A program made the position numbers and the translations under genes. Under the pieces are notes generated by a model. That model saw nothing but the letters and a program-made list of their open reading frames with translations. It had not been told where the DNA came from and searched no databases. From Spirochaetota bacterium (lineage in GTDB: Bacteria; Spirochaetota; Brevinematia; DTOW01), in NCBI GenBank assembly GCA_025061835.1, contig JANXAC010000003.1, positions 10,862 through 74,861 on the forward strand: a DNA stretch of 64,000 bases, read 5' to 3'. Of the stretch, positions 34,956 through 53,231 are shown piece after piece (within the stretch, counting starts at the first letter, position 1; the number at the start of each line of letters is the position of its first letter).

Positions 34956-34990
34956 ATTATTTTAGTGAGACTTTAGTAGGAGGTATGTTA

Positions 34991-37900
34991 ATGACGAGTT
35001 TGAGTAATAAAGTTCTTTTAGTTTTGATGTTTGTGTTTCTGTCATATCATTTGTATGGGCAGATTACCTTTTATGAGGATTTTAATACTGCTGCCAATAT
35101 CAGTAGTTTCACTGCTAATCTTACGAATGGTACCCTAGAAGTAGGGTATCCAGATGTGACTTCAGGATATTATTGGTTTCAAGAGTGGGGGGATTTTGCT
35201 TACTACAATGGAAATTTCTATATTGTTTGGGCTGATAGAAGGTATGATGGATACTCACAAGTATTTCTTACGAAAATGGATGGTAATGGTAATATACTAT
35301 TTTCAACCAACATAGAGATATCAATGATTGCAACTACCAACTCAAATGAGTATTATAATTTCGCTATTAGCCCTACAATATCCGTTTATGATAACAATCA
35401 TATCTATATCTCCTTTGGTTATAACTTTAATAACTTTTACAGAACTATTGCTAGTAGATGGCAAGATACAGGCAGTTCTTTTTCTCTTGTTTGGTCAAGG
35501 AGAGTTGATAATAACTTTGGGGACCAGATAGACTATACTCCGATCCTATATAAGGCATCATCAACTGTTGATAATGTTGGTAATTTGTATCTTATACAGG
35601 TGTGGCGTAGGATAGGTAGTGGAGATACGTCTTGGATTTCTAAGATAGACTCATCTGGTAACCAATATTGGATAAGTGGTATAAATCCCGGAACTGCTTT
35701 CATGACAACCTTTGGTGATTTCATAATAGCGGGTGAGGTTATATACACAAATGGTTTTATTTATGCTACTGGTCAGCATTGGATATGGTCTCCATCTAGG
35801 GACTTCGGTGTTGGGATAAATAGGTTATCAACGAATAATACCTATTCTACTTCGTGGGGTGGTGGTACTAATATTAGTGGTAGAGGAGTAGTGTTTGATT
35901 ACATGCTTCATGCTGCTCCTAAGGTTGATCTTGTATATCTATCAGGAGACTTATACATTGTCTTTGCTGATAGGAGAAATGGTAATTCTGATGTTTTTAT
36001 AACGAGAATAAATACTAATACAGGTTTTTTTGTTTGGTCCTCTCCGTCCGTTAGGTTGGTTGCTGGTGGTAGTGATGTTCAAGAATATCCTTCTATACAC
36101 TATGATGGTTCTGGAAACTTATATGTTTCTTACCTTGCTACATCTGGAAGTGGTAGGAGCATAAGGGTTGCTAAAGTTGACCAGAATGGTTCTGTGTTAG
36201 GTGATGTATCTCTTGACTCTGCTTTGTATAATCCTACTTACAATATAGGACAACCTAAACTTTATGTATCTCCTTCTGGTGAGTTGTTCGTGTTCTTTTA
36301 TGAAGATGGAGGGGTAGGTAAGAGAAGAGTGAAGGTTGCGAAATATGATGGGTTTGCTGGGAATTTATTGTTTGTCAAGGAAGTGCAGGATGTAGAGTAT
36401 AAGAAAGTATCTTCAATGCTTTCTACAAGAGTTTTAGCAGGGTCTGTTGGAACCGCAAGTTCAGTTAGATTAAACTCAACTTTTGCTACCAATGGTCAGC
36501 AGATAAATTTCTTTACGTCGCCCGATGGTATCAATTGGTATCTTACACCAACGAATACTGTTGTGAATTTCACCAATATTGGTTCCGACTTGAGGGTAAG
36601 GATAACATTTTCTGGAGATGGTAAGAGTAATTTTTGGGTTGATAGTTATTCGTTAGAGGTTTTGGGATATCAAACTGGAGATATATTTGCTTCGACGAAC
36701 TCTAACTTTACAACTTATGTTGGTAGCAATTACATAAGTAGTGCTCTATCTTCTCAAATAATTACAAACTATGTCTTGTCAGATGGTGTAAATAAGGCTG
36801 TTTTCCATTTGAGACTACTTAACATAGGTAATTCTAGTGGTAACTTCTATTTGTATGGTAGTTTTAGTAAATCCTGGTCATACGACTTTTTTGATGCTAA
36901 CAATAACAATATAAAACCTCAAGTCAATAATGGAACTTATGGTGTTTCATTACTACCAGGACAATTCACTAACTTCAGATTAGAGATAACTCCTCCAAGT
37001 TCTTCGTATGATGGTGAGATAGGTGAGTTCTATCTATACACGTCTGCTACGAATGGCAATTACCAACACGATGCGATGACACTTGTTGTGTATGCTAGAA
37101 AGTATTTACCAGATATGGCAATAAGTAATGCCTCGGGTGTAATTGGGACTAATGTTTATGAGCTTCATCCTTCATCACAGTCATGGTCTGCTAAAGCAAA
37201 TTCTAGGTTCTACGGGTATGAGACGGCTTATACCAATTACATAAGAATATTCAATAGAGGAATCCTAAACGATGTTATAGCAATAACTAACAACTTCTCA
37301 TCAAGTATTGGTTCTCTGTCTGATTGGAACATATTGGTGAGTAATATAAGTGATAATCAACTAGTATCGTCTTATCCTTACTATCTGAATATAAATTCTG
37401 GACAGAACAAAGTTCTGATGGTTGTAGTATCTCCTAAAACTAACGCTACTACCAATGATATTCTCTCTTTAAGATTTTTCTCCTTCTCAACGAATACCAA
37501 TGCAATCAATGATAATTTGAGAAAGGATAGCGTCATGTTTGTAATTACGAATCACAAAGTTCAACCTGATGTAGTAGTATCAACAAACATTTATATGCTA
37601 GGTGGGGTTAATGAGGGTAACTATGTATCTACCAATACTACGCTTACACAATCTATAATGGTTAGGACAGTCAATAATGTTGGACTTACATATTACTTTA
37701 GAGTAAAGAATGATGGGTATCAACCTGACACAATCTTTGTTAAAGCACAACAGATTACGAACCCCGGGTGGAGTGAGAGGTACTATACAAATGATGTTGA
37801 GATAACATCTTCTATAACCAATGCCGGTATTAATGTTTATTTACAGCAAGATGAATGGATTGACATAAAAGCGGAATACACACCAGATGGGACTGTTGAT

Positions 37901-40900
37901 AGTGGTGTTGAACCATGGGTTAGGTTGGATACTATTTCAACTACATTCACGAATGCTTATGACTATGCTTGGGCAAGACCTAGAAACATAAAGGTAAGAC
38001 CTGATGTCCTTATTGGAAGTTCGTTGTCAAGTATGATAGGTAATGATATTTACAACTCAACAGGTATGAACCAAAATACTTTTAATTTAGTTATGAAGGG
38101 AGGTGTTGAGATAGTAACGAACTTCATTGTAGTTCAAAACGACAGTACAACTGACCCAGATATTATCAACATCGTAGGAGATGTGCAACCTACAGGGTGG
38201 ATTGTGAAGTATTTAAGTGCTTCTGATGATGATATTACTCATAACATAACTAACACTACTAATTTGACATTACCTCTAGGTAGCAGTATAACACTAAAGG
38301 TTGTTTCTTATCCTCAGATGAGTGTTCCTGATGATCAAATTGTTGAAATCAAGGTCAAAGCTTATTCTTCTTATGTAGCATCTCAAGAGGATGTTGTTGT
38401 TGTATCCAACAGGGCTATAAGTGTCAAACCTGATATGGGTGTTTGGGCACCATTGAGTGGTTGGATTGATGTACCGACTGTTTCCGGAACCTATGAGGGA
38501 CAAGGTAGTCTGAGTAATAAAATAATAGCAGGAATGACTAATTCGTTTAGGATTAGGCTGAAGAATGATACTTTATCTGTTCAACCTTATATTCTTAAGG
38601 CAACAATAACCAATAAGGGAGGAAGTTTAAAAGACTGGGTTTATACTTTCAGGTCTGTTGTTGGTTCATTAACCAACGATATAACATCTCATGTTACTAA
38701 CAATGGTTGGACGAATACATATTCAGTTGGACAGACTGTTGAAGTGTTGGTTAGTGTATTTTTGACTAACGCTGTTTCTTTTGATTTGGCAACTACGAAT
38801 GGTGCTGTGAGCAACATGCTTGAACTCAAGTATGATTTCATAAGCGTTTTTAGAACTAATATTGTGGATAAGGGAATGCATAGTCTGATAGTGGTTAGAG
38901 GACTTCCTGATGCGTATCATGAGAGCTTACTTGTAGGATTAAATATTGTGACTAATGAGTTTGGTCCTGGAAACTATTCACTGTATGGTATAACAAAAAA
39001 CTACCCAAGAAGTGATATAGTATTAAAGTTCAGGAATGTTGGAGACTTTAGAGATGTGTTTAGAATATATGCTACCATTTCAAATGGATCTCAACCGAAC
39101 AATCACATTACTAATTGGGTTTTCTCGTTCTTTGATGAACAGACGAATGATGTAACTTATTACATAACCAACACTAATGCTGGTTGGACAAATACAATAA
39201 CGAATGGCTATGAGAGAATTTTGAGGATGCAAATTGTGAATAGTAATGGTTATGTAAATGACAACGTTTTCTTTTTCTTCAGTTTTGAGACGGTAACTAA
39301 AGAGGTAAGGTTTGACACAATCTGGTATGAGGTTATTATCACACCGGGATTACCGGATGTTGCTGTCTCAAATATTTATACAGGGACTTTGAAAGGAACA
39401 AATCAGTTTGGTCCTGAAAGTTATGACTATTACAAGATTGAGACGAATGAAATAGGTAGGTATAGGATAGTAATGAGGAACATAGCACCGATACAAGGGT
39501 ATCCGCGGTTTAGACTGAAAGCAGTATTGTATGGAGATACAGGTAAGTTTGATATCTACCATACCAACAAGGATGGAAATTACATTCATTTAACAAATTT
39601 GACATCAACACTGGGATACACTAATTATCTGAGTAACTATAACGCTATAAATAACTTTCCAGAGGATTATCTATCGGTTTATGTCGTTCCAAAACCAAGT
39701 GCTCTTCCAGGTGATAAGGTGATAATTAGATACGAATTTAGCCTTTACGATAATCCTGGTGTATTTGATTTCGTTTATATAACCAATCAAGTTGTAATAC
39801 CTAGGGTTAGTGTTTTGTCTTTACCAACTTATAGTTCTAATGTTACTGCATATGTGGGTAAGTATCAGTCTTCTACTGGAATGTTTATAGTATCTAATGG
39901 TGATAGTGTTTGGGAAGACTTTGTTGTGAAAGCAACTCAATCATCTTCTGTTGGTTGGAATATAAAGTTCTTTACAAACTCAACTGATCTGTCTTCTTCA
40001 TTCTTTGGGACTGGTTTTGAAACAGGTAATATTGATGGTAATACTGTAATGTTATTCACATTTACTATAACTAATACAACTGAACTTACTAGCGGCACTA
40101 CCAATATTCTCAGCATAACTGCGAGGAGTAAGAAAAACACTAATGTTTCATCTACTCTTACTGTTAACATACTATATATTGATGCTGTTGCGGATATTTT
40201 TGCTAGGAATGAGGATGATAATGGTGAGTTTGTAGGTATCAATGTAATAGATGGTGCTATTACGAACAAGATTGAAATCAATGAAACTAACATTTACTAT
40301 GTTGTTTTGAGTAATTCTATAAGCGTGGGTGCTCCTGTTAAGTTTGTTGTTTCCGCTGAGAGTAATTACTCTCCGATGTTTATTACCAGAATATTCTCGC
40401 ATAATGATACAGATATAACTTCTCAAGTGTTTAATTCAAACTATATTATAGAGATTGGCTCAGGTCAGAGTTCTTTTGTTAGGGTTGTTAGAATACTGAC
40501 TAACACGAATACATCTGTTGGAAGTGGGTTTCATTCATATCTTAGGCTTTCAATGAAGACGGTTGATGTGGAGAATAATATTTATGACTATATTATTCTA
40601 AGGGATGTTGTAGTTGATCCTGATGTTGATGTAAGGAGTGCTGGAGGTTATGATAACATATTCTCGTTTAATTCATACTTGGATAATGGTAAAAATGTAA
40701 AAACTTTCAAGAATACACCTATTTCAGTCTATTTGGGTATAAAGAATGAAGATCAAGTCAGTGAAAGGTTCTATGTTAAGGCTAATACAGGAAATTCTGT
40801 TTGGGATGTTAAGTATTATGACCTAAACAATAATGATGTAACAGATTTGGTTAGACAAGGTAGTTATCTCACTCCATTAGTTGGTCACGGGGAATTTTAT

Positions 40901-41581
40901 ATCATAAAGACTGTGATAAAACCTTCTATTGAGGTGAATCCTGCGGATGTGTTTTATCAAACTGTTGAGGTTTGGTCATACAAGAATAACTCTCGTAAAG
41001 ATTTTATAACTAATACTGTTTCAATAGAGAGTATGTTCATAGTTGGCAAAGTGAGAGATAAAAAGACAGGTAATGGTATTCCAAATTCGGTTGTTGAGGT
41101 TGTTGATCCTTATGGTATGAAAGTTGTTGTTAAATCAGATACAAATGGTAATTACTCTGCACCTGTTTATCCTGTTGTCGGAGGATTGTATATGATGAAA
41201 GCAGAAGCAAGCGCATATGTGGGAGCATTTACCAATATTTACTTTGAAATAGGAACTAATATTGTTAATTTTGATCTGGTCGGTCTCAATATGACGGCGG
41301 ATAAGGTTGATGTTAGAATATTCCCTAACCCAATACAGGTAGGTAAAGGTGGTAGTTTTGTTTATGCTTTAAACGAGGATACGGTTGTTTCTGTGTCAAT
41401 ATATGACTTGAACGGAAAACTGGTTAAGCATATTGCTAGGGATGAGAGAAAACCGAGAGGTGTCTATTACTTCATATGGGATGGGACGGATGAGAACGGA
41501 GCGTATGTTAAACAAGGTGTTTATGTATTTACAATAAATACGGGTAAAGAAGTTATTGTTAAAAAATTGTTCGTTAAGTAG
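34991..41581 (+). CDS. giant modular surface protein with C-terminal T9SS-like sorting domain (1)
   Basis: 2,196 residues from the ATG at 34991, seven bases after GGAGG (the ATG at 34985 touches it). A signal peptide ends at LYGQ. The next ~550 residues contain repeated propeller-like units (FYIVWADRRYDGYSQVFLTK; LYIVFADRRNGNSDVFITRI). Then come about ten related modules of 130-160 residues, each opening with a 'PDV' motif and including a 'N-x-G'-type strand, a Trp-rich strand, D-I/V-T plus Thr-Asn repeats. Near residue 2020 lies a carboxypeptidase-regulatory-like domain (VGKVRDKKTGNGIPNSVVEV). The end is an FPNP domain (DVRIFPNPIQVG, then YDLNGKLVKHI, YYFIWDGTDENG, QGVYVFTI) with a basic tail KKLFVK, like type A sorting/FlgD-like Ig domains. 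The following gene is a paralogue. Function unknown; surface display or adhesion is inferred. Confidence 0.82.
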   Translation: MTSLSNKVLLVLMFVFLSYHLYGQITFYEDFNTAANISSFTANLTNGTLEVGYPDVTSGYYWFQEWGDFAYYNGNFYIVWADRRYDGYSQVFLTKMDGNGNILFSTNIEISMIATTNSNEYYNFAISPTISVYDNNHIYISFGYNFNNFYRTIASRWQDTGSSFSLVWSRRVDNNFGDQIDYTPILYKASSTVDNVGNLYLIQVWRRIGSGDTSWISKIDSSGNQYWISGINPGTAFMTTFGDFIIAGEVIYTNGFIYATGQHWIWSPSRDFGVGINRLSTNNTYSTSWGGGTNISGRGVVFDYMLHAAPKVDLVYLSGDLYIVFADRRNGNSDVFITRINTNTGFFVWSSPSVRLVAGGSDVQEYPSIHYDGSGNLYVSYLATSGSGRSIRVAKVDQNGSVLGDVSLDSALYNPTYNIGQPKLYVSPSGELFVFFYEDGGVGKRRVKVAKYDGFAGNLLFVKEVQDVEYKKVSSMLSTRVLAGSVGTASSVRLNSTFATNGQQINFFTSPDGINWYLTPTNTVVNFTNIGSDLRVRITFSGDGKSNFWVDSYSLEVLGYQTGDIFASTNSNFTTYVGSNYISSALSSQIITNYVLSDGVNKAVFHLRLLNIGNSSGNFYLYGSFSKSWSYDFFDANNNNIKPQVNNGTYGVSLLPGQFTNFRLEITPPSSSYDGEIGEFYLYTSATNGNYQHDAMTLVVYARKYLPDMAISNASGVIGTNVYELHPSSQSWSAKANSRFYGYETAYTNYIRIFNRGILNDVIAITNNFSSSIGSLSDWNILVSNISDNQLVSSYPYYLNINSGQNKVLMVVVSPKTNATTNDILSLRFFSFSTNTNAINDNLRKDSVMFVITNHKVQPDVVVSTNIYMLGGVNEGNYVSTNTTLTQSIMVRTVNNVGLTYYFRVKNDGYQPDTIFVKAQQITNPGWSERYYTNDVEITSSITNAGINVYLQQDEWIDIKAEYTPDGTVDSGVEPWVRLDTISTTFTNAYDYAWARPRNIKVRPDVLIGSSLSSMIGNDIYNSTGMNQNTFNLVMKGGVEIVTNFIVVQNDSTTDPDIINIVGDVQPTGWIVKYLSASDDDITHNITNTTNLTLPLGSSITLKVVSYPQMSVPDDQIVEIKVKAYSSYVASQEDVVVVSNRAISVKPDMGVWAPLSGWIDVPTVSGTYEGQGSLSNKIIAGMTNSFRIRLKNDTLSVQPYILKATITNKGGSLKDWVYTFRSVVGSLTNDITSHVTNNGWTNTYSVGQTVEVLVSVFLTNAVSFDLATTNGAVSNMLELKYDFISVFRTNIVDKGMHSLIVVRGLPDAYHESLLVGLNIVTNEFGPGNYSLYGITKNYPRSDIVLKFRNVGDFRDVFRIYATISNGSQPNNHITNWVFSFFDEQTNDVTYYITNTNAGWTNTITNGYERILRMQIVNSNGYVNDNVFFFFSFETVTKEVRFDTIWYEVIITPGLPDVAVSNIYTGTLKGTNQFGPESYDYYKIETNEIGRYRIVMRNIAPIQGYPRFRLKAVLYGDTGKFDIYHTNKDGNYIHLTNLTSTLGYTNYLSNYNAINNFPEDYLSVYVVPKPSALPGDKVIIRYEFSLYDNPGVFDFVYITNQVVIPRVSVLSLPTYSSNVTAYVGKYQSSTGMFIVSNGDSVWEDFVVKATQSSSVGWNIKFFTNSTDLSSSFFGTGFETGNIDGNTVMLFTFTITNTTELTSGTTNILSITARSKKNTNVSSTLTVNILYIDAVADIFARNEDDNGEFVGINVIDGAITNKIEINETNIYYVVLSNSISVGAPVKFVVSAESNYSPMFITRIFSHNDTDITSQVFNSNYIIEIGSGQSSFVRVVRILTNTNTSVGSGFHSYLRLSMKTVDVENNIYDYIILRDVVVDPDVDVRSAGGYDNIFSFNSYLDNGKNVKTFKNTPISVYLGIKNEDQVSERFYVKANTGNSVWDVKYYDLNNNDVTDLVRQGSYLTPLVGHGEFYIIKTVIKPSIEVNPADVFYQTVEVWSYKNNSRKDFITNTVSIESMFIVGKVRDKKTGNGIPNSVVEVVDPYGMKVVVKSDTNGNYSAPVYPVVGGLYMMKAEASAYVGAFTNIYFEIGTNIVNFDLVGLNMTADKVDVRIFPNPIQVGKGGSFVYALNEDTVVSVSIYDLNGKLVKHIARDERKPRGVYYFIWDGTDENGAYVKQGVYVFTINTGKEVIVKKLFVK

Positions 41582-41599
41582 TAAGTAGGAGGTTTATGT

Positions 41600-44500
41600 A
41601 TGAAAGGAATTTTGTTTAGTTTTGTATTCATACTTATGAGTAGTGTTGTGTTTGGAGGTGTAATTTACAAGACATCTTCAAACACTCTTGTTTGGGATGA
41701 AGATTTTACTAGTTCAGCACATCTTGACTCTTACAATGCCTTTATAGGTGTTTGGGGTGGTGGTAGATTATCTATAAACAGTCTGTTTATGTGGAGATGG
41801 GATGGCCCGATAGTTGATGTTATTGCAGATAAGGCAAATTCTAAGCTTTACCTTGTTGAGGAACTGAATGTTTATTCTTCGTTTTACGGTGGAACACCAT
41901 TCGTGAATAACGCTAACTTTAGATATGATGTTTTTGCTTATAGTTATAACTTTGATGGAACAAAGAATTGGACATACAGTGTGATGATGAGAACCAATAC
42001 TAACGATGCCATTGTTTCATATTCTGGTGGTGACTCAAGGTATCCTGTTGCGACGGTTGATAACTATGGTAATCTGTATGTTGTATATTCTGATTTGACA
42101 AATAACATCTGGTCAATTATCGTTCAAAAAGTTTCTAATAATGGACGAATCCTATGGGGTAGTTCAACTCAGGATAGGGTAATTACTAATACAGTTAATT
42201 ATCAGCCTGCAGTTGCTTATCGTAGTAATGACAATTCATTGTTTGTGGCTTATTTCATAGGTAACAATGTAAGATTAAGGAAACTCAATGCTAACAATGG
42301 AAGTGATATCTGGGATGTTCAGGTAAATACATCGTCTGGTGTTAATCGTGGTATTGATATGAAGATAGGACCTGATGGGTATCTGTATGTTGTTTGGAAT
42401 AATAGCACTGGTGGGTTTATGAATGTAAGAGCACAGAGAATAGATCCAGTTAGTGGAAACAGGGTTAGCTGGGGTGGGACCCTTAACGATAAAACACTAA
42501 ATCAACATACTTCTTATTCATCTGCTAACTATTGGTATGGAACTACGGAAGAAACTGTTGGTATTGATTTTGATGATCAAACTAATATGTATGTAGTATT
42601 CAAATACTTTAGGAGTGGGTATGGTTCAAAGGTGTTTATACAAAAAATAAGGTGTTATAACAATGGTGTTAATGATTTTGAGAGAGTTTGGTCTGATGAT
42701 GTTAAAGTTGCGAATGGTGGAGGTGTTGCAGATGCTTATCCTGACATTGTTTTGATGGGTGACTCTGCGTATGTTGTATGGATTAATCACGGCGATGTTC
42801 AGAATGACCATGCTATGTTACAGAGAGTGAATATACATACTGGTCAGAAAGTGTGGGCTAGTGACATTAATTTGCAGCCGTATGGTATAACTCACCACGC
42901 GAGGATAGCTAGTGATGGAAATTTTGTTTATGTATTTGGTCAGATTGGGCTTGTAAAGGTTGATATATTCGGTAATGTAGTGGAATCTATAAATCAGATG
43001 GACAGGTTTTATACTACTTTTGCTACATTTAGGATAAAGAATCTGTTCAATCCTGATGTTGATACTGCAGTAGTTCCATTGAATGTGAGAGTTAGACCTT
43101 CTTTCTTGTCAAATTATAATAACTCAACATCTTTGTTCTATGTTAGCCCTGAAACAACTCCTAGTGGTGCTTCAGCAAACTATGTTGTATCAACGAATAC
43201 AAACTCGCAATTGCTTCAACTTTCATCACAGAAAGGTAATGTGCTTGTTTTCATCTCACTTGATAACAGGTCTAATGGTGGAACGAATACGATAGTTTTG
43301 ACAAACCTTAAGGTAGAGTTTGTTGATTACTATTTTGGTGATGGACTAATTGGTAAGGTAAGTGATGGTAGCGATAGGATTGGTAATCTTGTGCTTAATA
43401 CTAGCGGTAGTGGTCAGAGTGTTGTTGATTATGTCTATAACGATGGACTCCAATCCGCTAAAGCGTTTTTCTATTTTGTAAACAATGGGACTGTGGTAAG
43501 TAATTTTAGGTTTAGAGGAACGCCAGGTAATCCTAGTTGGACTGTTGAGTATTGGCTTTGCACGAATAATGGTACTGAATGGGTTACGAATCAAAACATA
43601 ACTTCTATAGCGACTGGCTCCGGTTTTGTAACTAATCTATCACCATACACAGGTGGTAACTCAAACATTCTAGTTGTTAGGGCTTTTCTAAGACCTTCTT
43701 CTGGTCTTAGTTCAGGTAGCACATACACAATCTACGGACGGATTGATACTCAACTTCCTGATGGTAGTTACAAGGAGTCTGATGTGGTTGCACTTCAAGG
43801 TGTTGTAAGTTCCTCAATACCTGATAACAGAGTAAGTTATGACAATTCTGCTTACATAGGTGATGATATTAGAAACTCTGATGGTTCTGGTCAGACTTTG
43901 AACTCGGTAATGGATGTTGGAGTAGAGAAGAGGTTCTACCTCATCATTAGAAACCGAGGTGGTGCTGATAATATAACTCTTCAAGGAACTGGTGGAGATG
44001 GATGGTGGAGTATAAGGTATTTTACAAACAATTTAGATGTTACATCTTCCGTTGTTGGTGGAACATTTTCAGTTAATCTCGCTTCAATGGCAGACTCTCC
44101 TGTCATTGAGATTAGAATCTCTCCTACCAATTCCTCTACTCCAACTAATACCGTTAAAAACATAGTTTTGAAATCTATCTCCCAGAGTGATCCTACTAAG
44201 GAAGATGTTGCTAGGGTTGTTGTTACCGCTGTTGTTACTAAATCCGAACTTGTTGTGAGGAAACAGGGATCGCTTGACTGGGTTGGGGCAGGTGTGTTTT
44301 CTACAAATTATTCTATCCAGAAAGTATCAAACCGTATTGATAACGGACTTACAAACGTTTATGAGATTTCAATAACTAACCTAGGTAGTTATCCTCAAAA
44401 CTATACCATAAAGGCTTTCAGTAGCAATTTTGCATCTGGGTGGGATGTTAAGTATTTCTATGGTTCTTCTGACATAACTGCACTTATCACAGGTCAAGGA

Positions 44501-47500
44501 TTTATTGTTTCAAACCTAAATCCTACAAATATCGGTAGTAACATAATCTTGCGTATCATTTCTCCTTCTACATATCCAACTGGTGCTAATGAGGTTATGG
44601 GAGTCTATTTTGTGGCGTATGGTGAAGGTGATACGAATACTGATAGCAAAAGAGATACAGTTTCAGTTGAGGATAGGCTTGTATCAACCAGACTTGATGC
44701 TATCGTTGTATCCTCGTTATATGGGAGTTACGGTTATAACTTAATAACAGATAACATATTCCTTCAAGAATTTTACACTTATACAGTATCAAATAGTGAA
44801 TATACCATAATACTATCAAACCCATCTCCTTCATCTTTTGAGTTCAATGTAAGAATAACGAATGCTAATAATATTCAGTGGAGGATAGTTGTTTCAAATC
44901 CTTCGTCTGATATTACAGCAAGTGTGACAAATCCTTCTGGTTGGACAACACCAATTATTCCTTCAGGTGGAACATACCAACTCAAGTTATATGTTTTCTC
45001 AACTAATGAGGGCACAGGTTTTGGGGCTTCAGTTGGTAGTACTAATAGAGTGTCAATCCTATTGAATTCTCCTCTCAAGGCCAGTGTGGTAGACAGACTT
45101 CTATTGTATGTGGAAAGAGCATTACCTCCTGATCTAGTAGTTAAAAATACGAATGAATTCTCTTACAGAGGATTTAATCTATTTACAACTAATACAAATG
45201 TGTCGGATCAACTTGTGTATAATTCCTATCCTAACGATGATACAACATACAAAGAAGGGCTTTTTAGAGTCAAGAATAGAAGACCCGTTTCTGAAAACTT
45301 TATCATTAAGGTAGGTGAGTTAGTCAAGAATAATGATTGGGATTACAGTATCTTATTATACACGGGAAGCGATATAGATAACCCTGATTTTACAGCTTCA
45401 TCTCATTGGAGTAATGTTACTGCTAACATAACTAATACTGGTGGTATTACTAACTCTGTTTTAGGTAATAGTGATGTGTTATTTAGGATAATTGCGAAAC
45501 CAATAACTGCAACAAATAACAATGATACTATATCTTTGAAGTTTAGTGTAATTGGGAACACTACTAAACTAGAAGATGTTGGAGTATTCAGAGTAGTTTT
45601 CGGCGTTGGGATACCTGATGTTTATGCTTTGTCTGGTGTAGGTCAAGGGGTTATTAGCACGAACTATTCTGTGGCCTATACTAACTACTTTGACAAGGCT
45701 CTAGGAGACATAATACCTATATTCATAAGTAATCAAAACCCTGATGTTGGTGGTGATTTTGTAGTAATTGGGGATAATGATAAAGATCAGTGGGATATCG
45801 CATACTACTCAAGTTCTACTAATGATATTACATCTTATGTAGTAGGAAATGGTTATTCTATATCTTTTCTACCATCAGGAACTAACGTTATATATGTAAA
45901 GATAAAGGCAATACATAACTCTACCTATGGTCTGGGACAGACTACGAACTTTAATATTGCGGTTAAGAATGATCAAGGGGGTATAGATACAATTAAAGTT
46001 GTCTCTATCATAACTGATAGGGGAGTGCCAGACATATATACAAGCAGTGGCTGGAGTAATGTTTTTGAGTCTACTCCTTCTTCACAAATACTAACTACCT
46101 ACATAGGTAAGGGTGATTATATCACTAACATTATTTATGTTGGTAACTGGAGGACTATAAGTGAAACTAATCTTCTTTACATTTCTAAGCCTGCGATTGA
46201 AGACTTTAGTATCAAAGTAGAGAAACTTGTTGGTTCTTCTTGGGTGGATATCACATCCGAAGTTACAAACTTATCAACGAAGCATGAGGTGGTCTTGGGT
46301 GGAACTTCAGTTACGACGAGGATAATTATGTATGCTGACTCCAATACTACACTACCTCTCAACACTCTTGCAGAAATTGATGTTAGGGTTGACTCGCAAG
46401 GTAAGTTGAAGGTTGATAGAGCAAAGATTAGATATGTCCTTACTGATATGGGGAGACCAGATATCTATTCAGTAGTATCTGGTGTATCCAATGGCTTTGA
46501 CATTTATGAAACTACTCCTCTAATTCAAATTCAGGACATTGAAATAGAGAAAGGGGTTACGAATGAGTTCAATATTCTGTTGGGAAATAGAAGATACAAG
46601 ACTGAAACGATGAAGGTATGGTCATCAGGTAGTAGTTATAGTGAGTTTAAGTTAAGATACTTCTTATCAACAAACGGTGTTGATTGGATCAATATTACAA
46701 CGAATATAACTAACTCTTCAGGTTATACCAATCTTCCAATCCTGGGGAATAGTAATGTGATACTCAAGATTGAGGCGTTCCTTACAACAAACTCTACTAA
46801 TCAGATTGATGATGTTTTAGACACAACTGTTAGACTATATTCTTGGGTAGGTGTTTCAAATGATAACTTTAAATTGAACTTCATTGTTAAGGATAAGAAT
46901 AGACCTGATCTGCTTATCTCTAGTACTGGTAGTAACATCTTCTATCCTATACCACAGAGGATAACGAATACTATAGAGAAGGGCAATGTAATAACTCAAA
47001 GTATCATTATAATGAACGCAAAGAATGACAGGACTTCTGATTTTATACTTGAAGCGAATAGTGGATATGGAGATTGGTCTGTTAAGTATGTTATTGATGG
47101 AGTGGATGTAACACATTCTGCTACCAATACAGGAACTTACATATCCGCTGTCCCACCTCTGGGTATCAAAAACCTGGATGTTATTGTAACACTTGACTCT
47201 AATTCAACTTACACTCTTGGTAGTAATTATACTGTAAATCTTAAACTTTTCTCGTATTCTAAACTCGTTAGGGATGAGTTTAATATAACTTTTAGGATCA
47301 TTGATCAAGGAAGACCTGATGTTTTTATAGTGTCTGAGCATGACAATGTCTATTCTCCAGATAATCAGTCAGTTACGAATAAGATAGAGGAAGGAGAGAC
47401 ATTGACTAATTACTTCTATGTTCAGAATGATAGGTTGGATAAAGCAGAGAATATCACTATACGAGGTTCTTTCAACACTAATACTAACTGGGTTTATGAG

Positions 47501-48733
47501 ATAAAGGTTAATCAGGGTGGTGTATGGAATAGTATAATCAACGACTTTACGAATAATGGTTATACTGTCAGTATTTCACCTAGTAGTGTTGTTACAGGTC
47601 AAGTCGTTATTTATTTAAGTAACAATTCTGGAATACCTAGTGGTAGTGTCAATACTGTGAGTATAGAAGCCTTATCGCAAGGAAAATTAGTTAATGATTC
47701 AGCAACGATCAACTATCTGTTAGTTAAACCAAGACCAGATATTAAGGTTATACCAGTATCAAGTGGTGGTAATTTAGCGGGTAATAATATTTATGAGACA
47801 AACACTAATGATATTACAAATTCAACAGGTTTGGGTTATGTTATGCTTATACAGCCATCTATATACTCCGTCATAGTGGATAATGATGATGTTGTTGAAG
47901 ATACCTATGTTGTCAAAGCCTTTGGTGAATTGTATGTATCAAACAAGTGGGCTGTTACAGTAAGAGACCAGCATGGTGATGATATAACTTTCAGGATAAC
48001 AAACATCGGTGTTACGAATGTTGTTTCTGGGACGAACTCTTTTGTTTTGGTGGTTGATGTCAAACTTATAAATGCTGAGAATGTTGCTATAGGTGAGAGT
48101 AATGTTGTTTTCTTTAAAGTTGTGTCTATGAAGAATACTAACAAGACTGACTTTGTTAGGGTTATCACAGTCAGGATGGAGACTGATGTATTCGGGAAGG
48201 TTGTTGAGAAAGTAAGTGGTAGTCCGATATCAGGTGCAATTGTTGAAACTTATGAAGCCAGAACTGGAAAACTTATAAAGACAATCAATACTGCCAACGA
48301 TGGAACATTCACTGTGAAACTTATACCTACAACTTATAAGTTTGTTGTTAAGAAGGATAAGTATTTAGTGTTTGAGAAGGTTCTTACTATACCAGAGGTG
48401 CTACAGCATACATTAGAAGACCTTGGACTGATTAGGTTTAACCTTAAGGATGATGTTTTGGATATTCATTCATTCCCTAATCCTGTTAATGTTGGTGGTA
48501 ATGTTAGGATTGTTGTGAATGTTCCGAAGAGATCTGTGGTTAAGGTATATGTTGTAGGTATGAATGGAGTGCTTTTGAGAAGGATTGTCAATGCAAAAGA
48601 ACTAGAGCCAGGCAAGTATAGTTTTGAGTGGAACTTGAGAACTGATGATGGTACTATACTCAAACAAGGTATATATTTGCTTGTCATTGAAGACGGTTCT
48701 GAGGTTATTATAAGAAGAATAATGATAAAATAA
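41600..48733 (+). CDS. giant modular surface protein with C-terminal T9SS-like sorting domain (2)
   Basis: 2,377 residues, paralogue of the preceding gene with the same plan: signal peptide (KGILFSFVFILMSSVVFGG), an N-terminal propeller-like region with LYVVYSDLTNNIWSIIVQK-type units to about residue 480, some eleven to twelve 'PD[IVL]' modules (SIPDNRVSYD, GIPDVYALSG, GVPDIYTSSG, GRPDIYSVVS, NRPDLLISST, GRPDVFIVSE, PRPDIKVIPV), a carboxypeptidase-regulatory-like domain (VFGKVVEKVSGSPISGAIVE) and an FPNP domain (IHSFPNPVNVGG, FEWNLRTDDGT, QGIYLLVI) with a basic end RRIMIK. It starts 18 bases after the first giant gene behind its own GGAGG site, so the two and the following barrel gene form an operon. 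Confidence 0.82.
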   Translation: MKGILFSFVFILMSSVVFGGVIYKTSSNTLVWDEDFTSSAHLDSYNAFIGVWGGGRLSINSLFMWRWDGPIVDVIADKANSKLYLVEELNVYSSFYGGTPFVNNANFRYDVFAYSYNFDGTKNWTYSVMMRTNTNDAIVSYSGGDSRYPVATVDNYGNLYVVYSDLTNNIWSIIVQKVSNNGRILWGSSTQDRVITNTVNYQPAVAYRSNDNSLFVAYFIGNNVRLRKLNANNGSDIWDVQVNTSSGVNRGIDMKIGPDGYLYVVWNNSTGGFMNVRAQRIDPVSGNRVSWGGTLNDKTLNQHTSYSSANYWYGTTEETVGIDFDDQTNMYVVFKYFRSGYGSKVFIQKIRCYNNGVNDFERVWSDDVKVANGGGVADAYPDIVLMGDSAYVVWINHGDVQNDHAMLQRVNIHTGQKVWASDINLQPYGITHHARIASDGNFVYVFGQIGLVKVDIFGNVVESINQMDRFYTTFATFRIKNLFNPDVDTAVVPLNVRVRPSFLSNYNNSTSLFYVSPETTPSGASANYVVSTNTNSQLLQLSSQKGNVLVFISLDNRSNGGTNTIVLTNLKVEFVDYYFGDGLIGKVSDGSDRIGNLVLNTSGSGQSVVDYVYNDGLQSAKAFFYFVNNGTVVSNFRFRGTPGNPSWTVEYWLCTNNGTEWVTNQNITSIATGSGFVTNLSPYTGGNSNILVVRAFLRPSSGLSSGSTYTIYGRIDTQLPDGSYKESDVVALQGVVSSSIPDNRVSYDNSAYIGDDIRNSDGSGQTLNSVMDVGVEKRFYLIIRNRGGADNITLQGTGGDGWWSIRYFTNNLDVTSSVVGGTFSVNLASMADSPVIEIRISPTNSSTPTNTVKNIVLKSISQSDPTKEDVARVVVTAVVTKSELVVRKQGSLDWVGAGVFSTNYSIQKVSNRIDNGLTNVYEISITNLGSYPQNYTIKAFSSNFASGWDVKYFYGSSDITALITGQGFIVSNLNPTNIGSNIILRIISPSTYPTGANEVMGVYFVAYGEGDTNTDSKRDTVSVEDRLVSTRLDAIVVSSLYGSYGYNLITDNIFLQEFYTYTVSNSEYTIILSNPSPSSFEFNVRITNANNIQWRIVVSNPSSDITASVTNPSGWTTPIIPSGGTYQLKLYVFSTNEGTGFGASVGSTNRVSILLNSPLKASVVDRLLLYVERALPPDLVVKNTNEFSYRGFNLFTTNTNVSDQLVYNSYPNDDTTYKEGLFRVKNRRPVSENFIIKVGELVKNNDWDYSILLYTGSDIDNPDFTASSHWSNVTANITNTGGITNSVLGNSDVLFRIIAKPITATNNNDTISLKFSVIGNTTKLEDVGVFRVVFGVGIPDVYALSGVGQGVISTNYSVAYTNYFDKALGDIIPIFISNQNPDVGGDFVVIGDNDKDQWDIAYYSSSTNDITSYVVGNGYSISFLPSGTNVIYVKIKAIHNSTYGLGQTTNFNIAVKNDQGGIDTIKVVSIITDRGVPDIYTSSGWSNVFESTPSSQILTTYIGKGDYITNIIYVGNWRTISETNLLYISKPAIEDFSIKVEKLVGSSWVDITSEVTNLSTKHEVVLGGTSVTTRIIMYADSNTTLPLNTLAEIDVRVDSQGKLKVDRAKIRYVLTDMGRPDIYSVVSGVSNGFDIYETTPLIQIQDIEIEKGVTNEFNILLGNRRYKTETMKVWSSGSSYSEFKLRYFLSTNGVDWINITTNITNSSGYTNLPILGNSNVILKIEAFLTTNSTNQIDDVLDTTVRLYSWVGVSNDNFKLNFIVKDKNRPDLLISSTGSNIFYPIPQRITNTIEKGNVITQSIIIMNAKNDRTSDFILEANSGYGDWSVKYVIDGVDVTHSATNTGTYISAVPPLGIKNLDVIVTLDSNSTYTLGSNYTVNLKLFSYSKLVRDEFNITFRIIDQGRPDVFIVSEHDNVYSPDNQSVTNKIEEGETLTNYFYVQNDRLDKAENITIRGSFNTNTNWVYEIKVNQGGVWNSIINDFTNNGYTVSISPSSVVTGQVVIYLSNNSGIPSGSVNTVSIEALSQGKLVNDSATINYLLVKPRPDIKVIPVSSGGNLAGNNIYETNTNDITNSTGLGYVMLIQPSIYSVIVDNDDVVEDTYVVKAFGELYVSNKWAVTVRDQHGDDITFRITNIGVTNVVSGTNSFVLVVDVKLINAENVAIGESNVVFFKVVSMKNTNKTDFVRVITVRMETDVFGKVVEKVSGSPISGAIVETYEARTGKLIKTINTANDGTFTVKLIPTTYKFVVKKDKYLVFEKVLTIPEVLQHTLEDLGLIRFNLKDDVLDIHSFPNPVNVGGNVRIVVNVPKRSVVKVYVVGMNGVLLRRIVNAKELEPGKYSFEWNLRTDDGTILKQGIYLLVIEDGSEVIIRRIMIK

Positions 48734-48744
48734 GGAGGTATTTT

Positions 48745-50379
48745 ATGAAAAGAGTTGTAGTTTTTTGCTTGTTTGTTTTGGTTTCTGCTGATGTTTTTGC
48801 GCTAACGCTTCTTGAAAATACTATAGGTCCTAGACCTTTGTCGCTTGGAGGGGCTTATGTTGCGGTAGGTGGTGATAATGAGAGTATGTTTTGGAATCCT
48901 GCTGGAATACCGAATGTTAAGTATGGTTCGGTCTCTTTAGGTTATCAGAATAGATTTCTAGGGTTTAGTTATCTTGAATTTTATGGTAGTTTCAAAGTTC
49001 CGGTTAAGGAGATTCCTTTGCTTGACGGTGTTGGTGGTTTGGGCTTTGCTTTCTGGGGGACAGAAGAAGAGAGGTGGAGTGATATAAACGAACTTGATGG
49101 TAAAGTATATGCTAATGAATATCTTTTTGGACTTGGATACAAGAAAGTGTTTTCGGATGCATTATCAATAGGGTTCGCTCTCAAGTTAGCAGGACAAAGT
49201 GTTGATGATGTATCATCTCTTTCGTTTGTATTGGATGTTGGAGCAATAAGTAGTGTTGAAGGAGTAGGTATAGGACTTGCTATAAAGAACATAGGTATAG
49301 GTAGCACGAATATAGATATACCTATGGGGATATCACTGGGCGCTTTCTATACCATATTCAATACACCAGATAATCAGCATTCTGTGAGTTTAACTGGACA
49401 ACTTGATTCTGTCTATGGTAGTGGTTTTTCTCTCAAGGTTGGTTCTGAATATAGTTGGATACCAACATTCTGGGATGGTGTTATAAGAGTCAGGCTGGGT
49501 TATGATACTCTACCTTCAAAAGATTTAGGTATCCTTTCAGGATTAGGTGGAGGTTTTGATGTATCGTGGTATGGTGCAACACTGAAGTATTCTTTATACA
49601 ACCTCGGCTTCATAGGAGCGTCTCATAATGTTCAACTTTCCTATGACTTTGACTTTTTACTCAAGCGAACACTAGCACAGGATGATAAAGAATCTCCTAC
49701 TATATCTTTGCTTGTAAGACCGAAGATGATAGTTATGGGTAATGAAAAATACGGTAAAATAAACATTGATATTGATATTGCTGATAATGTAGGTATAAAG
49801 TATTGGGGATATAGGATAATTGATAGTAGCGAAAATGTTGTTTATTACTATGACCTTACGAATGCTAAGTCTTTGCCGAAGGTTTCAAAGAGCATTGAAT
49901 GGGATGGCAAGTCGCAGGTTGGATCTCCACTTTATGATGATATTTACAAACTTAAAGTTTTTGCTTATGATGATGTTGGTAATGTCTCGGAAAAGGTTGA
50001 GAAGAATATAATAATAAGTGCTGACCCAAGGAACATAATACTCATTCCTGATAAGCAGGTTATCACATCGCCTACCGATAAGCTAACAGTGAGTTCCTTT
50101 AGGGATGTAAGTAATGTCATCTCATATAGGATTGTTGTAGTATCAGAAAGGGATGGTAGTATTATCAGGGAATTTAAGGAAAGTGCTAACATAAAACTTA
50201 CTAAGGATGGTAAGATAGCAAGTGGAAAACCACTTGAGTTTAAGTCAATCGTTTGGGATCTCAAGAAGAGCGACGGGGAGCTGGCAGAGAAAGGAATTTA
50301 TGTAGTTCAAGGAGAGTTTGAGTTTGTTGGTAATGTTATAAGAAAATCCTTCCCTGCGGAAGTAAGAATTGACTATTAG
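48745..50379 (+). CDS. PorV/UPF0164-like outer-membrane barrel with FlgD-like Ig extension
   Basis: 544 residues. Signal peptide (KRVVVFCLFVLVSADVFA), then IGPRPLSLGGAYVAVGGDNE and SMFWNPAGIPNVKYGSVSLG, the N-terminal signature shared by PorV/PorQ (T9SS) and the spirochaetal UPF0164 family; beta-strands continue to about residue 310. Unusually, a further ~230 residues follow with two Ig-like units (SIEWDGKSQVGSPLYDDIYK; VWDLKKSDGELAEKGIYVV) of the FlgD type. PorV shuttles T9SS cargo to the outer-membrane attachment complex by binding its C-terminal domain. Its position directly after two FPNP-domain proteins, with an 11-base gap and GGAGG site, suggests it handles them; this is inference. Confidence 0.75.
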   Translation: MKRVVVFCLFVLVSADVFALTLLENTIGPRPLSLGGAYVAVGGDNESMFWNPAGIPNVKYGSVSLGYQNRFLGFSYLEFYGSFKVPVKEIPLLDGVGGLGFAFWGTEEERWSDINELDGKVYANEYLFGLGYKKVFSDALSIGFALKLAGQSVDDVSSLSFVLDVGAISSVEGVGIGLAIKNIGIGSTNIDIPMGISLGAFYTIFNTPDNQHSVSLTGQLDSVYGSGFSLKVGSEYSWIPTFWDGVIRVRLGYDTLPSKDLGILSGLGGGFDVSWYGATLKYSLYNLGFIGASHNVQLSYDFDFLLKRTLAQDDKESPTISLLVRPKMIVMGNEKYGKINIDIDIADNVGIKYWGYRIIDSSENVVYYYDLTNAKSLPKVSKSIEWDGKSQVGSPLYDDIYKLKVFAYDDVGNVSEKVEKNIIISADPRNIILIPDKQVITSPTDKLTVSSFRDVSNVISYRIVVVSERDGSIIREFKESANIKLTKDGKIASGKPLEFKSIVWDLKKSDGELAEKGIYVVQGEFEFVGNVIRKSFPAEVRIDY

Positions 50380-50380
50380 G

Positions 50381-50767
50381 TTATAGTAATACGAGTATCC
50401 TAACAAATCCATTACTAAATTTATACATAACTAACGATGATAAGTTGTGATACATAATTACACCGAGCCCTCTGTATCTTTTCTCTGAATAATTGAGATA
50501 TAACTTTGGGTTTTGTATTTTTTGGATGACTATCTCAAAATCGTTTGACTTAAATAAGATCAATATGCTTACCTTCTTACTTTTATACTCCCGTATGCTT
50601 ATTGTTATCTTGTCTGTATTTGAATGATGTAGAATATTCTCAATTATCTCGGTAAGTATTACTTTAAGTTTATCTTTTATTGGCAGATCAAATCTCAATC
50701 TGTCTATAAATTCATTTATCAAGAATATCCCTTTTTTATTGTTGCGTATTTCTATAAGAAACTTCAT
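50381..50767 (-). CDS. RsbW/SpoIIAB-like ATPase-fold protein (degenerate anti-sigma kinase)
   Basis: 128 residues of the GHKL fold. The N box KVILTEIIENILHHSN is intact. The G1 'DxGxG' motif is not visible, and only a short GLG remains near residue 100 (RYRGLGVIMYHNL) for the ATP lid. Proteins of this type bind and phosphorylate STAS antagonists and hold a sigma factor or another partner. The degenerate ATP site raises the chance that it only binds. Last gene of the operon; its ATG overlaps the STAS gene's stop by four bases, which fits a kinase-antagonist pair. Confidence 0.7.
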   Translation of the reverse strand: MKFLIEIRNNKKGIFLINEFIDRLRFDLPIKDKLKVILTEIIENILHHSNTDKITISIREYKSKKVSILILFKSNDFEIVIQKIQNPKLYLNYSEKRYRGLGVIMYHNLSSLVMYKFSNGFVRILVLL

Positions 50768-51093
50768 TTTACATCTGATAGTGAGAATACAATATTGAAC
50801 ATATCCTTGAAACCCGTTGAATTGATTGCTTCAAGTGCTACTGATGATGGTGATAGGATGAACACCTTAAAACCTTTTTCTTCTCCTTTCTCAATGGCAT
50901 ACATTATGGTTCCGAGCCCAGCAGATGAAAGGATATCAACCTCGCTTAAGTCAATACAGACACTCTTTTTTTCAATAGCATCGTATAGTTGTTTTTGAAA
51001 GTCATCGTAGGTGTAGGAATTTATACTTCCCTTTGCCTTTATAAGGATGAATTTGCCCTCATCAGAAACATTGATAAATAACTTCTTTTCCAT
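50764..51093 (-). CDS. STAS-domain anti-sigma factor antagonist
   Basis: 109 residues, a single STAS domain. CIDLSEVDILSSAGLGTIM (residues 46-64) is the RsbV/SpoIIAA signature, with Ser56 and Ser57 as candidates for phosphorylation. In the known partner-switch scheme the dephosphorylated STAS protein captures the RsbW-like kinase and frees its client. Both enzyme types of that switch are encoded next to it: two PP2C phosphatases upstream and the kinase-fold protein downstream. A good GGAGG-type site precedes the ATG (GGGAGGC on the minus strand). Confidence 0.86.
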   Translation of the reverse strand: MEKKLFINVSDEGKFILIKAKGSINSYTYDDFQKQLYDAIEKKSVCIDLSEVDILSSAGLGTIMYAIEKGEEKGFKVFILSPSSVALEAINSTGFKDMFNIVFSLSDVK

Positions 51094-51104
51094 ACAAGCC
51101 TCCC

Positions 51105-53231
51105 TTAAGATAGTTTAAAGACAACTAAACTAATATCATCCTCAATTTTTCTATTGACGAAATTATACCAAGTATCAAATAGTTTGTCTAGTATTTCTCT
51201 GGAATTTTTATTTTCCGATAGTTTTATGATATTTTCCGTTATAGATAGTGGGAAGGTAGTTCCTTCTAGTGACTTTGCTCCTGTGTATCCATCGGTTGCT
51301 ATCACAACTATATCGTTCTTGTTAAGTGATACTTTGTTTATCTGTATATACTTTGAGATGTCTTTCACAAATCCTAAGACTTTCCCTTCACCTTGTATTT
51401 GTGATATACTCTTGAGCTTTGAGGAATAGTGCCACATTGCTGGTATGCCTGCGTTTATAAAGAACATTTCTTTCTGTTGAGTGTCAACGAGTATAAAAAC
51501 TCCGCTAAAGAATGTTCCCTTTGGTAGGTTTTCCTTTATAATTTTGTTAAGTTCCTCAACCATTCCTTTGAAGTTAAGTTTATTTCTTATTAGAGTATAT
51601 ATTGATGATTTCAAGACCACCATTGACATACTTGCTGTGAGCCCCTTGCCAGATATGTCTCCTATAACGATTAAATATCTGTTTTTTATTTTTATAACAT
51701 CCACAAAGTCGCCACCTAAACCACTACTCGTTCTTGTTATATACTCAAAATCTAGCTCTGCTGGGTTTGGTTTCTTGATATTATGAAGTATTGTCTCGGT
51801 GATTGTCCTACTCATCTCAATCTCTCTATTCACTGTTATAGTTATCTTTTGCTTCTTTAAGTTTTTGAGTATATATGCTATCGTGAAGAGTGTTGGATAT
51901 ATCGTTTGTAGTGCCTTGTAGTCATAGTTATCGTATGTTCTACCATTTTCTTTCTCACCGAGCGACAATAACATTATTGTTTGAGTTCCATCTTTCACTA
52001 ATATGATAACTTCTGATGATAGTTTTTTAAACATATCCTGTATTACATCAGCATTCGTTTTTAGGATTGGATCAGATATGATTTCGGAGCTTAGAAAAAC
52101 GGTCTTGTTCCCGTAGCTTGAGAGTATCTCAATTACCTTAAGATTCTTGTCTAAACTTTCTTCCGTGTTTGTTTCAGTATAGATATTTTCTAAAAGTCCA
52201 ACCTCATTCTCTACAAAGAGATTTATTTTTGTTGAGGATATGTTTTCTCTTAGTGACTTTACGAGTTTATCTACTATTTCTTCTTGTGGTTTTGTTAAAT
52301 CAATTGAGTTTATATCATTCAGCAGTGTCTCAATATAGTTTGACTTGAACTTGAGGATTTTTCTTATGAACTTATTTAGGTAGTTGCCTATCAGAATTAG
52401 TATTGAAAGTAGTAGAAATATTGATAGGGGGAATACATTCGCTAGTGATGTTGAGTAGTTTGATATTACTTTCAGTGTTATTCCACCTATAGCTCCTAAG
52501 ACTATTATTGAAACTACTACAACTATGGTATTATATATTGCGGATGTTATGTTGAAGAGTTTAGTTCTTGTTATTGCGTAGGCTAATGATCCAGCGAGTA
52601 CGAATCCCAGTAACGATGATAAGTAGTAGTATCTGAATGTTTTTAGGAGTATAGGTATTACCATCGCTATAAACACTGCTAGTAGTAATGATAGAGCTGT
52701 TCCTATCACTATAAGTGTTGTTTGAAGTTTGAAAATCTTATGTTTGGTTCTTACTGCTTTTACTATGCCTATTAACGATGATACTACTAATAGCCCAGTA
52801 GCAACAGAAGTGTAGAGTCTGTAGTATTGCCCCTCGAGTCGGTATATTATCCCTTCTCGCTGTTCGGCTCCAACTATTACCGAGTCTGTCATGAAAAGTA
52901 TATAAACAACTATTCCTACTGCACCCAAAAGCAATAGATCTAACAGTTTCAGATCCTTCTCTTCAGGAAAAGAGACCATCAATCTTAGTATTGATAAGTT
53001 TGCTATCACCATCATAAGTGATGTAAGTCTTAAAGATGCATTTGTTATTTCAAGTGCATTCATCTTAGCAGAATCCCAAGAGATACCGATAAATAAAGTG
53101 ATAAGTGAAGAAGACATTATCGTTATGAAAATTATTCTAGTATTTATTAATTTGGGACTCTTAAGGAATATAAACCATCCTAGTATCTGAAGAGTAATGA
53201 AAGCAGAATAAGGAATTAAACTTTCACTCAT
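51105..53231 (-). CDS. membrane SpoIIE-type PP2C phosphatase with 7TM-like sensor
   Basis: 708 residues. The first ~290 residues have about eight membrane helices in the style of the N-terminal 7TM region of sensor proteins. A GAF-like segment follows (about 310-450). The C-terminal PP2C/SpoIIE domain shows SSGLGGDFVDVIKI, VIGDISGKGLTASMSMVVLKS, NAGIPAMW, IATDGYTGAKS and KIEDDISLVVF, with the metal-binding Asp residues in place. It should dephosphorylate the STAS protein encoded 11 bases downstream in response to an outside or membrane signal. It overlaps the preceding phosphatase gene by four bases. Confidence 0.86.
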   Translation of the reverse strand: MSESLIPYSAFITLQILGWFIFLKSPKLINTRIIFITIMSSSLITLFIGISWDSAKMNALEITNASLRLTSLMMVIANLSILRLMVSFPEEKDLKLLDLLLLGAVGIVVYILFMTDSVIVGAEQREGIIYRLEGQYYRLYTSVATGLLVVSSLIGIVKAVRTKHKIFKLQTTLIVIGTALSLLLAVFIAMVIPILLKTFRYYYLSSLLGFVLAGSLAYAITRTKLFNITSAIYNTIVVVVSIIVLGAIGGITLKVISNYSTSLANVFPLSIFLLLSILILIGNYLNKFIRKILKFKSNYIETLLNDINSIDLTKPQEEIVDKLVKSLRENISSTKINLFVENEVGLLENIYTETNTEESLDKNLKVIEILSSYGNKTVFLSSEIISDPILKTNADVIQDMFKKLSSEVIILVKDGTQTIMLLSLGEKENGRTYDNYDYKALQTIYPTLFTIAYILKNLKKQKITITVNREIEMSRTITETILHNIKKPNPAELDFEYITRTSSGLGGDFVDVIKIKNRYLIVIGDISGKGLTASMSMVVLKSSIYTLIRNKLNFKGMVEELNKIIKENLPKGTFFSGVFILVDTQQKEMFFINAGIPAMWHYSSKLKSISQIQGEGKVLGFVKDISKYIQINKVSLNKNDIVVIATDGYTGAKSLEGTTFPLSITENIIKLSENKNSREILDKLFDTWYNFVNRKIEDDISLVVFKLS

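Follow-up and report, generated by a model that had tools for sequence, protein, structure and literature searches.

A spirochaete operon of two giant proteins and a PorV-like barrel points to a probable outer-membrane-only relative of the type IX secretion system

In the type IX secretion system (T9SS) of Bacteroidota, GldL, GldM and PorU are essential, and subtilases are a classic type of cargo. Outer-membrane export in spirochaetes, for its part, is poorly understood. A survey of the T9SS found the system in no clade beyond the Bacteroidota/FCB superphylum (PMC4793230), and a 2024 review confines it to Bacteroidota or the FCB superphylum (PMC11205867). The C-terminal domain (CTD) of T9SS cargo is a sandwich of 3+4 strands, for which a KLIKK ending has been described and which in RgpB contains the L-beta3-beta4 motif at I694-V702, with its Gly at G699 (PMC11285876). 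In the type B SprB/SprF pairs of Flavobacterium, a giant adhesin-like cargo is held at the cell surface by its own linked shuttle (PMC12618676, PMC12635249).

The locus described here lies in a 64,000-nucleotide stretch of DNA (the window) from a draft assembly of a Spirochaetota bacterium of the class Brevinematia (1.8 Mb, 96% complete, 55 contigs). In common with the Bacteroidota T9SS, this genome has a homologue of SprA, a putative shuttle of PorV-like fold, a CTD with the published motifs at the extreme C terminus of its cargo, a secreted subtilase and giant cargo of surface type. It differs in that neither a PorL/PorM motor nor a PorU sortase was detected, in having multiple shuttle genes, each paired with cargo, in that the cargo probably keeps its CTD, and in its host phylum. 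Since motor and sortase were sought and not found, we do not class the system as a T9SS; by analogy, the operon together with SprA would work like the outer-membrane half of one. The reading that we consider probable is therefore an outer-membrane-only relative of the T9SS, in which dedicated PorV-like shuttles carry uncleaved cargo to the surface and probably keep it there.

Comparison with the type B pairs is also instructive. As there, cargo genes are linked to their own shuttle genes, and the permanent anchoring that we propose would resemble that of SprB and SprF. However, both tag and barrel are type-A-like, the shuttle being related to PorV rather than to PorP/SprF, and the shuttle has no twin-cysteine tail, its sole cysteine being residue 8, inside the signal peptide. 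In Flavobacterium, SprF is attached to GldK. A further comparison is with the FadL-like PorV/UPF0164 proteins of treponemes, which belong to the same barrel family, but none of the eight treponeme-like loci inspected has a CTD gene beside the barrel gene.

Three co-oriented genes on the plus strand make up the operon, in the order cargo 1, cargo 2 and PorV-like barrel, and this order is kept in other genomes of the same genus. Their reading frames are open at 34985-41581 (2198 aa), 41600-48733 (2377 aa) and 48745-50379 (544 aa). For cargo 1 we prefer a start at 34991 to the longest-frame start at 34985, because an AGGAGG at 34978-34983 lies 7 bases before the former and only 1 base before the latter; giant cargo protein 1 thus occupies 34991..41581 and has about 2,196 residues. 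Giant cargo protein 2 (41600..48733), a paralogue of cargo 1, and the barrel protein (48745..50379), proposed as the dedicated shuttle or anchor, are each preceded by a clean AGGAGG, and their genes are separated by 11 bp. The three-gene arrangement, the giant sizes and the 11-base gap reported in the first-pass annotation were thus borne out, as were the signal peptides that it claimed for the giants: a hydrophobic, signal-peptide-like stretch is present at the N terminus of all three proteins. Beyond the barrel gene and convergent with it, positions 50381-54589 of the window carry genes for a STAS protein, an anti-sigma-like HATPase and two SpoIIE phosphatases, which form a partner-switch regulatory module.

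The two giants share 23% identity over their final 579 residues (E 1e-22) and have compositions rich in N, T, S and V, with cysteines absent from cargo 1 and numbering two in cargo 2. From its signal peptide, cargo 1 continues through a beta-propeller-like N-terminal part and an Ig-like rod, both judged from sequence in the absence of a family match, to a carboxypeptidase-regulatory-like beta domain (approximately 41024..41302, plus strand) and a type-A-like CTD. Their size and repeat-rich make-up suggest that the giants may be surface filaments or adhesins. The regulatory-like domain had been assigned to both giants in the earlier reading, an assignment that holds in part: the AF2 model of cargo 1 aligns with carboxypeptidase D and N domains, and a third giant of the genome has a weak Pfam match to the domain, whereas Pfam calls it in neither giant of the operon.

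The CTD of cargo 1 (41318..41578, plus strand) starts just before the FPNP sequence and ends in KKLFVK, and that of cargo 2 (48473..48730, plus strand) ends in RRIMIK; these conserved basic terminal strands are akin to the KLIKK ending. Against the profile of the T9SS type A sorting domain, TIGR04183, cargo 1 scores 32.1 bits and cargo 2 24.7 bits, both over the curated NCBI cut-off of 23 bits. Both alignments span practically the whole profile, in cargo 1 positions 1-72 of 72, and reach the final residue of the protein. FlgD_ig gives 36.8 bits for cargo 1 and a match below its cut-off for cargo 2. The two profiles overlap, so that an HMM match alone suits a CTD and a FlgD Ig domain alike; the first-pass annotation had reckoned with C termini matching FlgD/Ig folds only, and both giants exceed the TIGR04183 cut-off. 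In an AF2 model covering 189 residues at the C-terminal end of cargo 1 (mean pLDDT 82), the regulatory-like beta domain is followed by seven strands, the strand count of the published 3+4 sandwich. The conserved Gly of the cargo 1 sequence IYDLNGKLV is residue 6 of the nine that form the L-beta3-beta4 motif, as G699 is in RgpB. A fold search with the modelled CTD returned mostly generic Ig folds, with PorU at rank 13 and PorZ at rank 34, a result that does not discriminate between CTD and FlgD domains. A FlgD scaffold, in which the domain would sit within a protein of some 150-300 residues, was tested and failed: the carriers are the signal-peptide-bearing giants and a subtilase.

Against PorV_fam (NF033709) the barrel protein scores 73 bits (E 3e-20), under the curated cut-off of 90, and a single-sequence search of it against PDB sequences gave no match. 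Its AF2 model has 14 strands between residues 62 and 301 (48805..49650, plus strand), with pLDDT values mostly of 75-95 and lower ones in a few loops. The top PDB folds for this model are 8gl6_F (E 5e-11) and 6h3i_F (E 1e-9), with the next at 1e-6. In both entries chain F is the PorV of the SprA-PorV translocon, and FadL and porins follow well behind. The claim of a PorV-like barrel is made probable by this structural proximity and by a profile match that is strong though below its cut-off. The remainder of the protein, residues 310-544 (49672..50376, plus strand), is a beta-rich, FlgD_ig-like extension with a weak FlgD_ig match of 17.4 bits and a low-confidence AF2 model; it would lie in the periplasm.

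Searching the genome with TIGR04189 gave matches to two parts of a single frame of about 1,894 aa on another contig (C12), at 40.9 bits, far under the NCBI cut-off of 200 bits; a single-sequence search of this candidate against PDB sequences gave no match. Compared with the PDB as a profile of 20 spirochaete relatives, it matched SprA of Flavobacterium johnsoniae (6h3i) at E 6.3e-32. The main block of that alignment corresponds to F. johnsoniae residues 141-885, with weaker collinear pieces up to residue 1525, and the C-terminal barrel half aligns weakly. On this profile evidence the genome encodes a real SprA homologue; a genome devoid of SprA had earlier been named as the case against a T9SS-like route, and a homologue of about 1,894 residues is present. 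In a protein tree (FastTree, 849 columns) this SprA falls among those of Brevinematia and named Brevinematales genomes, and the tree, in which typical Bacteroidota SprA was not included, does not have the shape that one recent transfer into this genome would give. The gene is flanked by outer-membrane lipid genes (L003:1754-17111), namely lnt and an LptA-like gene, with lptB beyond an SNF2 helicase.

The profile searches of the genome covered SprA, CTD, PorV, GldL, GldM, PorU and MotA_ExbB. GldM had no match in this genome at E values up to 10, and in 393 Spirochaetota genomes it gave noise only (about 15-17 bits outside this genome). GldL had no credible match in the same 393, single-contig genomes included. 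Many spirochaetes did give GldL matches, which we discarded as noise from coiled coils: most fall at profile positions of about 100-240 in frames of some 600-750 aa, the size of chemotaxis receptors, and the two best-sized (in genomes G047 and G028) lie in a protein with a zinc-ribbon-like CPNC tail, encoded beside an RNase H-like gene. The PorU sortase, a C25 peptidase, was not found in this genome, where NF033707 matches a CTD-like C-terminal part only. One flagellar MotA with an adjoining MotB-like gene and one ExbB/TolQ-like protein are present; a general energy source thus exists in the genome, with nothing tying it to SprA.

A complete T9SS, with a PorLM-type motor, a PorKN ring and a PorU sortase, would have to hide its other parts through divergence or in the missing 4% of the genome. 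SprA itself is barely visible to its family model, the draft stops at 96% completeness in 55 contigs, and PorK, PorN, PorT, PorW and PorE were outside the searched set, all of which such a proposal can draw on; but the failure to find a credible GldL or GldM in any of the 393 genomes, and a PorU match confined to the CTD-like part with the peptidase part unmatched, make it unlikely in our view. The cargo-and-shuttle route proposed at first stands, then, as regards SprA, the sorting-domain cut-offs and the PorV fold, but not as a complete T9SS, neither GldL/GldM nor PorU having been found.

We return to the outer-membrane-only relative, for which sequence and structure prediction provide signal peptides and type-A-like CTDs on the cargo, an adjoining gene for a PorV-like barrel and, at another place in the genome, a homologue of SprA, and from which we infer transport, surface location and energy source. 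The cargo would cross the inner membrane by Sec and its CTD would enter the SprA channel, to be captured by a PorV-like barrel docked at SprA; the complex of barrel and cargo would then leave SprA and stay in the outer membrane. As no PorU was found, the CTD is probably uncut and the shuttle would serve as a permanent anchor, for which the repeated cargo-shuttle gene pairs also argue. As no PorL/PorM motor was found, an alternative energy source would be needed, which may be folding and capture on the outside, a general motor of TolQ/ExbB type, or a motor too divergent to detect. The products would be long, rod-like surface proteins.

The count of further proteins with the same tag, suggested in the first-pass annotation, came to two, a subtilase of 728 aa and a 263-aa protein, which exceed the TIGR04183 cut-off and bring the number in the genome, giants included, to four. 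The subtilase, with its C-terminal sorting-like domain, is encoded at L046:8501-10684. The gene for the 263-aa protein adjoins that for a BatA-like double-membrane-anchor protein (L047:2217-4518), a pair that recurs in a second genome of the genus. A CTD-like gene followed by a PorV-like gene after 11-12 bp occurs at three loci of the genome, in the window and on contigs C15 and C5; at the latter two the domain matches FlgD_ig and not the curated T9SS tag. On C15 (L045:10093-18309) the contig end truncates the third giant, which has at least 2,298 aa and a FlgD_ig-type end; 12 bp later comes the gene for a second barrel, PorV-like and 436 aa long. On C5 (L049:3909-8044) the FlgD_ig protein has 494 aa, the PorV-like barrel behind it has 300 aa, and a protein of 573 aa with no family match comes next.

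SprA was found in at least 83 of the 393 sampled Spirochaetota genomes, more sensitive searching adding others, and in all four sampled genomes of the genus, the sister genus and most of the class. Within the class all 14 SprA-positive genomes have CTDs, while four genomes of another family have neither SprA nor CTD nor PorV. Among genomes with three or more CTDs, 26 of 28 are SprA-positive after checking (Fisher p 4e-17, a value that ignores shared ancestry); two that had seemed SprA-negative (G036 and G146) were rejected as such on account of SprA fragments on short contigs. Three other spirochaete loci (L243, L244 and L172) hold frames of about 1,570-1,780 aa with weak similarity to SprA, possibly highly diverged forms of it. 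Outside the class, a scan of named genomes found SprA relatives in Spirochaetia, Leptospiraceae bins, Elusimicrobia/Endomicrobia, Aerophobetes, Omnitrophota, Firestonebacteria, WOR-3 and others.

Several further families of Spirochaetota show the pairing of CTD-like and PorV-like genes, and a tag-then-PorV pair shares its locus with SprA in Elusimicrobia and Aerophobetes. At three Elusimicrobia/Endomicrobia loci (L154, L134 and L138) and one from Aerophobetes (L102), the pair lies some 2-5 kb from SprA. The Elusimicrobia/Endomicrobia cargo at SprA loci consists of M6 metalloproteases with over-cut-off T9SS tags, and permeases that look to be of LptF/LptG type stand between SprA and the pair. 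Treponemes without detected SprA often carry one CTD-like match and one PorV-like protein, and therefore neither marker alone proves secretion. The eight treponeme-like loci (L215-L222), from genomes mostly without detected SprA, encode very large proteins with one CTD-like domain and have no adjacent PorV gene.

It is to these treponemes that one would point in arguing that the T9SS likeness is coincidental, and that plain FlgD/Ig domains, a FadL-type transporter and an SprA-like protein with some other outer-membrane task, such as the handling of lipid or LPS, have been brought together; FlgD_ig matches as good as those of TIGR04183, and the presence of lnt, an LptA-like gene and lptB among the neighbours of SprA, would be in keeping. 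Such coincidence sits badly with the tight CTD-PorV gene pairing across families and phyla, with the co-occurrence of CTDs and SprA, with the same tag being borne by a secreted subtilase and by M6 proteases, and with PorV being the best fold for the barrel, well ahead of FadL, and we hold it to be improbable. That SprA and the operon sit on contaminating contigs, a concern with any metagenome-assembled draft in 55 pieces, is scarcely credible, given that the operon is kept within the genus, that the tree groups this SprA with Brevinematia, that SprA occurs in all four sampled genomes of the genus, the sister genus and most of the class, and that a stray contig is excluded by orthologues of SprA with 54-69% identity in the genus and its sister.

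To judge from these searches, the same partial set as in the outer-membrane-only relative proposed here appears to recur in many spirochaetes and in other phyla thought to be without a T9SS. A literature search, with subscription papers and preprints outside its scope, turned up no previous account of a spirochaete SprA. We are evenly divided on whether an outer-membrane-only ancestor or relative of the T9SS, in which SprA, a PorV-like shuttle and CTD-bearing cargo do without a dedicated motor or sortase, is widespread across phyla, Spirochaetota, Elusimicrobiota and Aerophobota among them. If it is, the motor and sortase of Bacteroidota would be later additions, and translocation by SprA and PorV could run without PorLM. 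A translocon, shuttle and tag unaccompanied by a motor, outside Bacteroidota and the FCB superphylum, raise the questions of what drives transport through SprA and which parts a minimal system needs, and would offer a route to the surface for the very large proteins of spirochaetes.
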